Of a stretch of 64,000 nucleotides of DNA, positions 35,067-35,870 are shown piece after piece. A program made the translations under genes and the position numbers. Origin of the DNA: Ruminococcus flavefaciens MA2007. GTDB taxonomy: Bacteria; Bacillota; Clostridia; Oscillospirales; Ruminococcaceae. The notes below the pieces were generated by a model. That model saw only the letters and a list, made by a program, of their open reading frames with translations, did no database searches and was not told the DNA's origin. Positions within the stretch are counted from its first letter, which is position 1. Every line of letters begins with the position of its first letter. Where the stretch lies: the NCBI RefSeq assembly GCF_000621845.1, contig NZ_KK211354.1, positions 272,733 to 336,732 of the forward strand, read 5' to 3'.

Positions 35067-35121
35067 TTTGCAGAAGCATTATGTGACAGGAATGTGAAAA
35101 CGCAGATACAAGCATTTCATT

Positions 35122-35231
35122 TTTGTGCAAAACTGCCTTTGCTTTTTTCTTGAAAAGGTGCTATAATAAAGCAAGAGAACGTGTAGCAGTTACTGCGTAA
35201 GTCCAGTTGCTTGCTGCACGTTCTATTTTTT
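35122..35231 (+). promoter_or_regulatory. Promoter-leader module 1 (before the CarD gene)
   Basis: The 20-mer TTTGTGCAAAACTGCCTTTG (35122-35141) is followed after 20 nt by TATAAT (35162-35167); the -35 box is TTGCTT at 17 bp. The leader forms a stem of about 14 bp (from AGAACGTG at 35175 to ACGTTCT at 35218-35224), an internal loop and a 4-bp top stem ACTG/CAGT holding the loop CGTAAGTC, followed by ATTTTTTTTT, a terminator shape. The same upstream 20-mer, distance and loop recur in module 2 (35747-35850). Confidence 0.7.
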
Positions 35232-35246
35232 TTCGAGGTGATATTG

Positions 35247-35744
35247 ATGTATAATGTGGGAGACATTGTTATGTACGGGACATTCGGCATATGTAAGGTC
35301 ACAGCTATAGAAAAGCGTGATTTTACGGGAGAGGAGCAGGAGTACTATATACTCAGGCATACAAATTCAGAAAAAAACACTTTCTATGTTCCTGTAAATA
35401 ATGAAGCTGCTCTTGGCAATATGCATTATGTATGCTCAAAGGCTGAAGTTGACGAGCTTATCTCACATATGAATTCACATGACATGATATGGATTGACAA
35501 CGATATGCAGCGCAAAGCAGAATACAGCCGTATCATAAAGGACGCTGACAAGCACGATATGATAAGCCTGATAAAAACTTTGTATCTTCGCCGCAAGGAG
35601 CTTGCCGAAAGCGGAAAGAAGCTCCGTACCGCTGACGAGAATTATCTTAATCTTGCAGAGAATATGCTCTTTGAGGAGTTTGCCTACGCTCTTGACATTG
35701 ACAGAAGCGAAGTTGTTGAATATATCGAAAAGCATATCGCATAA
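35247..35744 (+). CDS. CarD/CdnL-family transcriptional regulator
   Basis: A 165-aa protein. The N-terminal CarD_CdnL_TRCF RNA-polymerase-interacting domain begins MYNVGDIVMYGTFGICKVTA and continues YYILRHTNSEKNTFYVPVNN. The C-terminal helical domain has LYLRRKELAESGKKLRTADE and the Leu/Glu-rich end. Members bind RNA polymerase beta and affect open-complex stability. GAGGTG lies 6 nt before the ATG. The start at 35247 is preferred, since upstream codons run into the leader hairpin. Not part of an operon; preceded by the promoter-leader module and followed by a second copy of that module. Confidence 0.9.
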   Translation: MYNVGDIVMYGTFGICKVTAIEKRDFTGEEQEYYILRHTNSEKNTFYVPVNNEAALGNMHYVCSKAEVDELISHMNSHDMIWIDNDMQRKAEYSRIIKDADKHDMISLIKTLYLRRKELAESGKKLRTADENYLNLAENMLFEEFAYALDIDRSEVVEYIEKHIA

Positions 35745-35746
35745 AC

Positions 35747-35850
35747 TTTGTGCAAAACTGCCTTTGAAAAATTCTGAAATAATTGATATAATTAGTACAT
35801 AACGAGTAGCAATTCTGCGTAAGTCCGGTTATTGCTGCTCGTTTTATTAT
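35747..35850 (+). promoter_or_regulatory. Promoter-leader module 2 (before the 79-aa gene)
   Basis: The same 20-mer as module 1 (35747-35766) starts directly after the CarD gene stop codon. TATAAT (35787-35792) again begins 21 nt after its end, with -35 TTGAAA at 17 bp. The leader hairpin is a continuous 13-bp stem (AACGAGTAGCAAT with ATTGCTGCTCGTT, one U-G pair) topped by CTG-CGTAAGTC-CGG, followed by TTATTATTTTT. Stem bases differ from module 1 while pairing is kept, and the loop CGTAAGTC is identical. Confidence 0.7.
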
Positions 35851-35870
35851 TTTTATGGAGGTCGATCATA

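Follow-up and report, generated by a model that had tools for sequence, protein, structure and literature searches.

Two adjacent genes in the window (the whole stretch of 64,000 nucleotides of Ruminococcus flavefaciens MA2007 DNA analyzed here), carD and a small gene designated P2, lie behind similar promoters and leaders, and this locus raises the question of what the leader hairpins do and how widely such hairpins occur. A first-pass annotation had described a 20-mer present twice, a TATAAT box 20 nt behind each copy and, in each leader, a hairpin with an identical loop and a T-rich tail; all of these were seen in the sequence and in the folds.

Two promoter-leader modules in the window

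The 20-mer TTTGTGCAAAACTGCCTTTG was found only at 35122-35141 and 35747-35766 in the whole window when up to 3 mismatches were allowed (highest count in 100 shuffled windows: 0), and its distance to the TATAAT box was exactly 20 nt in both copies (Table 1). It had been said to cover the -35 box and the region upstream; this is correct for the upstream region, where the 20-mer consists of a palindrome, but only the TTG of each -35 hexamer is included. Both leaders share the hairpin loop CGTAAGTC with a T-rich tail behind it, and the ten loop bases GCGTAAGTCC are the same in the two copies. The copy 1 leader folds with -26.7 kcal/mol (z = -4.87; 0 of 200 shuffles equally stable) and the copy 2 leader with -19.8 kcal/mol (z = -2.93; 1 of 200 shuffles equally stable). 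As described earlier, the two stems differ and remain paired, with G-U pairs present and one stem pair swapped from U-A to A-U (CGTG/CACG in copy 1 vs CGAG/CTCG in copy 2). A pattern scan for promoters and terminators reported the copy 2 promoter only and called neither hairpin a terminator; its silence on both hairpins is probably due to its loop limit of 3-8 nt, and the scan thus gives no support for termination.

Table 1. Coordinates, in the window, of the features of the two modules and of the genes behind them
Feature	Coordinates	Strand	Basis
Upstream palindrome TTTTGTGCAAAA, copy 1 (DNA-level site)	35121..35132	+	starts 41 nt before -10 box; consensus and preferred position in 129 upstream regions
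-35 hexamer TTGCTT, copy 1, weak	35139..35144	+	17 nt before TATAAT; not in the scan's list
-10 box TATAAT, copy 1	35162..35167	+	sequence
Putative terminator-embedded sensor hairpin, copy 1, before carD	35177..35222	+	R1 62.9 bits, R2 57.5 bits (copy 1 is part of both models); fold z -4.87
5'-terminal strand a GAAC, copy 1	35177..35180	+	covariation; pairing inferred
Conserved loop core GCGTAAGTCC, copy 1	35195..35204	+	sequence and alignment conservation
Strand b GTTG, copy 1	35206..35209	+	sequence and covariation
8-T run behind stem, copy 1	35226..35233	+	sequence
carD, 165 aa, CarD_TRCF_RID and CarD_C domains	35247..35744	+	domain search; CarD_TRCF_RID E 5e-13, CarD_C E 1.2e-5
Upstream palindrome CTTTGTGCAAAA, copy 2, one mismatch	35746..35757	+	sequence; 129-region consensus
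-35 hexamer TTGAAA, copy 2	35764..35769	+	sequence; pattern scan
-10 box TATAAT, copy 2	35787..35792	+	sequence; pattern scan
Putative terminator-embedded sensor hairpin, copy 2, before P2	35800..35843	+	R1 51.0 bits, R2 49.4 bits; fold z -2.93
5'-terminal strand a TAAC, copy 2	35800..35803	+	4/4 complementary to strand b; covariation
Conserved loop core GCGTAAGTCC, copy 2	35817..35826	+	sequence and alignment conservation
Strand b GTTA, copy 2	35828..35831	+	sequence and covariation
T-rich tail, copy 2	35842..35854	+	sequence
Small gene P2, 79 aa	35871..36110	+	relatives: often adjoins MATE or carD

The CarD protein of the window shares 157 of its 165 residues with the CarD encoded at locus L171 of R. 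flavefaciens YL228. No CarD domain was seen in P2. Neither Pfam (above cut-off) nor NCBIfam yielded a family for the P2 protein, and its structure model, which is of low confidence (mean pLDDT 67.7), had no PDB match at E ≤ 0.001. This low-confidence model has a beta-alpha-beta-beta order with a weak likeness to archaeal RNA ligase and release-factor/PrfH chains, and a ligase C-terminal region was among the Pfam matches below cut-off.

In the bacterium's own genome GCGTAAGTCC occurs three times, i.e., in the two leaders and once antisense inside a coding region, by eye a sigma-factor gene; this third occurrence was dropped as an element, as was a one-mismatch 16-mer at contig 2:26287, where there is no hairpin. 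Copy 1 had no match among phage records.

Occurrence of the hairpin among genomes

Two covariance models were used, R1 (14 sequences, both window copies included) and R2 (47 sequences). At E ≤ 0.05, R1 found the element in 49 of 247 genomes of the family, representing 36 of 126 genera. R2 found it at E ≤ 0.001 in 16 of 147 order genomes, two of which belong to the own family, and in 3 of 45 and 3 of 20 genomes of two other families; at E ≤ 0.01 the phylum-wide rate was low, with 7 of 398 genomes, own genome counted. Model searches across more than 40 genomes ran with stricter filters, by which weak matches are lost. A strict sequence pattern was present in at least 118 stretches of named genomes, with hosts among the matches listed including Ruminococcus, Blautia, Lachnospiraceae, Oscillospiraceae, Clostridium, Terrisporobacter and others. 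A covariance search of related genomes, proposed earlier as a check, thus yielded many copies.

The R1 matches in the family loci are 43-57 nt long, as compared to about 45 nt in the window. The 94 R1 matches of the family set were reduced to 58 distinct sense-strand places by omitting same-place duplicates, antisense matches and second weak places (for example L070:1173, L124:2092, L084:1443, L117:1423, L055). An independent set of elements that are part of neither model comprised 27 rows, 23 of them distinct; L247 and L249 (no regulon family seen downstream) as well as the second places of G745 and G831 and the third of G112 were omitted. P2 and CarD homologues were found in 20 and 72, respectively, of 148 family genomes, and hairpins with the same core stand before several of them, even where the promoter differs. 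Some loci carry two elements, either one per gene or two in tandem. By eye, five loci (L106, L115, L121, L084, L080) also show a second hairpin and T-run behind the element and before a MATE gene; these second hairpins are possibly tandem sensors or a separate terminator.

Conservation of stem and loop

Standard pairs filled 95.7% of the stem and core pair cells in the alignment of 47 sequences, as compared to 85.8% after shuffling, and changes on both sides of a pair numbered 57 as compared to 14.5 (0 of 500 shuffles reached 57). Pairings slid along the alignment left only 23-60% of cells paired. By a weaker measure, 7 stem pairs showed a both-side change, a number equalled in 14 of 500 shuffles; all pairing shuffles, here and for the second pairing below, ignore the relatedness of the sequences. 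These compensatory changes bear out both the covariation of the stems, which had been put forward as a further check, and the earlier suggestion of selection on RNA structure.

The loop, with the consensus GCGUAADUCC, is nearly invariant at C-G-U-A-A-D-U-C-C. In the 5' stem strand G5, G7 and G10 are conserved in 47, 47 and 46 of the 47 sequences, their partners varying mainly from C to U, and a U8-G60 wobble is retained in 30 of 47. Overall, conservation is somewhat higher in the 5' strand than in the 3' strand (summed entropy 7.49 vs 9.34 bits), as would be expected if the 5' strand had a second task. Behind the stem, at least 6 T were found among 12 nt in 115 of 118 named places among the matches listed.

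The strong stem and T-rich tail would also suit a plain terminator or a 5' stabilizing hairpin serving constant expression or release of a small RNA, but such a hairpin would leave the nearly invariant loop unexplained, as well as the covariation of the element's 5' end with bases behind the loop (see below), and we regard this explanation as improbable. Small RNAs released by termination, which the first-pass annotation had considered, are possible by-products that likewise do not explain the covariation between 5' end and loop flank.

A competing pairing of the 5' end

The first four nucleotides of the element (strand a, NAAC) are complementary to the four nucleotides just behind the loop (strand b, GUUN), so that GCGUAADUCC sits between the two strands. 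In the 47 sequences a-b complementarity held in 92.0% of cells (83.8% after shuffling) with 20 both-side changes (4.4 after shuffling; 0 of 500 shuffles reached 20), whereas slid a-b pairings were paired in 7-82% of cells with at most 7 both-side changes. Weaker measures were equalled more often: 24 of 500 shuffles had as many pairs showing both-side changes, and 12 of 500 as many further pair types. All four a-b pairs can form in 34 sequences, three in 11 and two in 2; examples of strands a/b are TGAT/ATCA (L106), TAAC/GTTA (window copy 2) and CAGC/GCTG (L078). In window copy 1, strand a is complementary to strand b at only three of four positions and can alternatively pair with the foot of the terminator stem. 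The alignment was not fitted to this pairing because the models contain no a-b pairs.

Among the 23 independent elements a and b were complementary at 88 of 92 positions (shuffled mean 84.3; 46 of 10,000 shuffles reached 88). For the named places, where the strict pattern fixes most other letters, the test was confined to position 1 and the last base of strand b (b4), which were paired in 86 of 119 places among the matches listed (shuffled mean 68.2; 0 of 10,000 shuffles); the same two positions were unpaired in the remaining 33 of these places and in 9 of the 47 aligned sequences. Pairing of strand a with the stem foot (c) could explain part of the a-b signal, because b and c both contain GUU; the test of position 1 with b4 is free of this confounding. 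A helix formed locally by the loop flank and strand b lacked support as a whole (69.9% paired vs 71.2% after shuffling); its two innermost pairs usually form.

As strand a also pairs with the stem foot, the a-b helix and the full terminator are mutually exclusive, and judging from geometry the linker between b and the 3' stem strand does not seem long enough to allow both structures. The full terminator exceeds the a-b state in stability by 19.2 kcal/mol on average in a model without tertiary contacts or ligand; given this gap and an a-b helix of four pairs, switching would have to depend on folding kinetics and on help from a ligand. For RNA that stops at b, the probability of the a-b helix was > 0.1 in 31 of 47 sequences and > 0.5 in 13 of 47 (values without a shuffled control), and the decision would therefore fall during transcription.

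The position of the element relative to the promoter was assessed in 129 upstream regions over 1-40 nt. TATAAT-like boxes (at most 1 mismatch) peaked 7 nt before the element, with 58 matches as compared to 18 for the next highest position, which puts strand a at the 5' terminus of the RNA or in its immediate vicinity. This peak would also fit a mechanism in which nucleoside triphosphates are sensed by choice of the start site, a shift of the start adding or removing strand a and so tipping the folding, but the nearly invariant loop core and G5, G7 and G10 would then have no explanation, and we find this mechanism very improbable.

We instead propose an attenuator, with a probability of roughly 60%: the hairpin would act in cis as a conditional transcription terminator, placed where the mRNA begins, with a riboswitch-like sensor within the terminator itself. 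The sequences themselves establish the hairpin element and its covarying positions, the complementarity that competes with it, the set of genes and the promoter motif; from these we infer that transcription terminates, that it is switched and in which direction, and what kind of ligand is involved. According to this model, without a signal the long stem of NAAC-GUGUAGC with GCUGCAC-GUU would form, followed by U residues, and RNA polymerase would halt about 55 nt into the transcript. During synthesis of the RNA, NAAC at its 5' end could instead pair with GUUN behind the loop, and the domain closed in this way would include the conserved strand GUGUAG as well as the loop GCGUAADUCC. This domain would be bound by a ligand, in all likelihood a small molecule, and held until the polymerase has passed, so that the gene is expressed. 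The direction of this response is suggested by the pump genes found downstream.

Genes behind the element

The first recognized gene within 500 nt downstream was recorded for the 119 places in the 118 named stretches listed. One of five families came first in 114 of these 119 places among the matches listed: MATE transporters, the commonest first gene, in 50, CarD in 27, P2 in 19, VEG-like proteins in 12 and a small membrane protein in 6. The remaining 5 comprised an 83-aa protein (1), none of the families (3) and a contig end (1). The 58 family places gave a similar set, with 55 in regulon families (MATE 22, CarD 21, P2 7, membrane protein 5) and 3 in none; locus L070, where P2 comes first behind the element, was counted as P2. 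Of the 23 independent elements, 20 stood before one of the families (CarD 13, MATE 5, P2 2), and one of the other 3 precedes a relative of the 83-aa protein. Two or more of the five families lay within 2.6 kb of each other in 15 of 80 named places examined, in pairs such as carD-P2 (the arrangement in the window), P2-MATE and VEG-MATE. The earlier suggestion that the modules couple CarD to a paralogous circuit is not supported; they appear here as two members of a wide regulon, with MATE transporters as the commonest first gene among the named places listed. In many Clostridia the element precedes MATE, CarD, VEG-like, P2 and DUF2798-like genes.

Two VEG-like representatives matched Pfam VEG (E = 7.7e-8 and 5.7e-6). 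One membrane-protein representative was weakly DUF2798-like (E = 6.3e-4, below cut-off), and a second had no match in the domain search. VEG-like proteins stand under the element at, e.g., L133:4054-4293 and L132:1319-1615, and membership of this regulon may hint at VEG function. A sixth small family of 83 aa (...NLNWLDLPNC...) was seen behind the element in two genomes (L135:2537, L245:1501); the L135 protein had no Pfam and no NCBIfam match. Strict-pattern elements at L223:6589 and L220:2484 (minus strand) precede other genes, one of which by eye has a rubredoxin-like start, and these genes are possible further targets. At L249 a weak model match, possibly due to chance, lies upstream of what by eye is an ABC transporter gene.

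The main rival to a riboswitch-like attenuator is the same conditional terminator with an RNA-binding protein as its signal, recognizing the GCGUAADUCC loop and blocking or favoring termination. A protein site would be an equally good fit for a short hairpin whose apical loop is conserved and which stands before several genes, but covariation of the 5' end is not expected of a simple protein-binding hairpin, and no regulator gene is known, outside any systematic search, to track the element. CarD and P2 themselves do not qualify as a general binder: among the 27 element-bearing genomes of 148 (single-sequence searches compared by hand, some genomes incomplete), 8 had no carD match and 21 no P2 match. 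Overall, we consider a protein signal unlikely.

Comparison with known RNA families

At the gathering threshold, a search of the whole window against Rfam 15 returned one tRNA only. Around both elements at E ≤ 5 it gave two matches, both below threshold. In seven relatives, searched at E ≤ 0.5, two matches were again below threshold, and one of these fell on the L080 element itself (mir-5856, 31.7 bits vs a threshold of 90). The earlier remark that no described element has such a layout thus agrees with the finding that no Rfam 15 family was reached at its threshold. The whole words MATE and CarD are absent from the main text of four discovery papers (PMC8632094, PMC11109978, PMC2965389, PMC2864571), as are "MATE family" and "carD" from that of PMC6429828; passages of these five papers on multidrug genes or on the host names likewise held no match to the element. 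A literature search, with supplements, preprints and most subscription journals outside its scope, returned nothing describing the element in the texts available to it, and the CarD papers concerned other bacteria.

In keeping with riboswitches in general, a conserved structured leader with a terminator-like platform stands here before several unrelated gene families. Like an intrinsic terminator, the element has a stem followed by U residues, to which it adds the conserved loop, the conserved 5' strand and the competing pairing. The portions of the literature consulted describe two systems of similar architecture. The HMP-PP riboswitch (thiS motif) has an unusually conserved terminator loop and a second, possibly pseudoknotted fold that disrupts the stem near the U run (PMC6478431); at the level of sequence architecture the element likewise would combine a sensor in the terminator, a conserved loop and a competing fold. 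Whereas that motif, as described there, is named after its association with thiS, the genes behind the element are MATE, CarD, VEG-like, P2 and DUF2798-like genes rather than genes of the thiS type.

In guanidine-IV riboswitches (GGAM-1, mepA motif) and their Gd4v variant some of the sensor resides in the terminator hairpin, termination is averted by base pairing to a segment upstream, and MATE genes are among the targets of both, as they are for the element (50 of 119 places among the matches listed); gut samples are enriched for Gd4v (PMC7736828, PMC9788692, PMC12186494). Guanidine-IV identity was considered for the MATE genes and the Clostridia, and was rejected on architecture and gene set as given in these published descriptions. 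Guanidine-IV and Gd4v RNAs are described as two hairpins and a pseudoknot, with constructs of about 92-105 nt (also PMC11611296), in contrast to one hairpin of 43-57 nt, and as the element lies directly behind the -10 box there is no room for a 5' hairpin of that type. Their commonest targets according to the same sources, sugE (guanidine-IV) and a transaminase (Gd4v), are not among the element's families. The element thus matches no described RNA family searchable here; its proposed mechanism is like those of HMP-PP and guanidine-IV riboswitches, and by their membership criteria it falls outside both.

At close to even odds, we tentatively go further and suggest a very short, undescribed riboswitch class whose aptamer would lie inside the terminator and be closed by the four nucleotides that begin the transcript. 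Such a riboswitch would sense a gut or rumen compound expelled by MATE pumps and also turn on the RNA-polymerase regulator CarD and several small proteins, from promoters with a palindromic site of their own. If this is true, a compact and widespread regulatory RNA with its own consensus would be added, tying together MATE pumps, clostridial CarD, a VEG-like protein and small proteins. Identification of the signal could name the substrate of MATE pumps in common gut bacteria, and the 5'-terminal strand would provide a clean test case for folding during transcription.

A palindromic site upstream of the promoter

The palindrome upstream of the window modules was examined in the 129 upstream regions, the named loci among which were drawn from the first 80 or part of them. 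TTTTGTNCAAAA with at most 1 mismatch was present in 53 of 129 regions, as compared to 0.6 in single-letter shuffles. With at most 2 mismatches, it starts 41-42 nt before the -10 box (sought 3-10 nt before the element) in 58 of the 80 regions that have both, and is followed by CC and then by a TTGAMA-like -35 box. In the 0.64 Mb of the window and named loci, both strands included, a hairpin core lies behind 31 of 33 promoter-like occurrences of TTTTGTNCAAAA (at most 1 mismatch), while occurrences without promoter-like boxes are followed by the core in 8 cases and not in 47, a background that consists only of the surroundings of loci fetched for the hairpin. TTTTGTNCAAAA may add control of initiation, either as a factor's site or as an unusual UP-like element; a factor site is favored because the center of the palindrome is kept. 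The earlier view that control signals are present at both the DNA and the RNA level is thus upheld by the palindromic promoter motif together with the covarying hairpin.

The palindromic motif, and the fact that inverted repeats can be operators, would also accord with conserved letters that are DNA operator sites only, the RNA structure being incidental. We consider this highly improbable, as the element's length varies between 43 and 57 nt, G-U pairs are retained (U8-G60 in 30 of 47 sequences) and the element lies on the coding strand directly before regulon families in 55 of 58 and, among the matches listed, 114 of 119 places; the riboswitch-like attenuator remains our preferred reading.

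By eye, the carD promoters of several relatives lack the palindrome and carry GCCTATNACA-like letters instead. At L155 (minus strand, approx. 5244-4446) the palindrome promoter stands before another carD-like gene, whose leader is different and longer and has several hairpins in place of the element; this gene represents one of the two promoter-like exceptions for TTTTGTNCAAAA.
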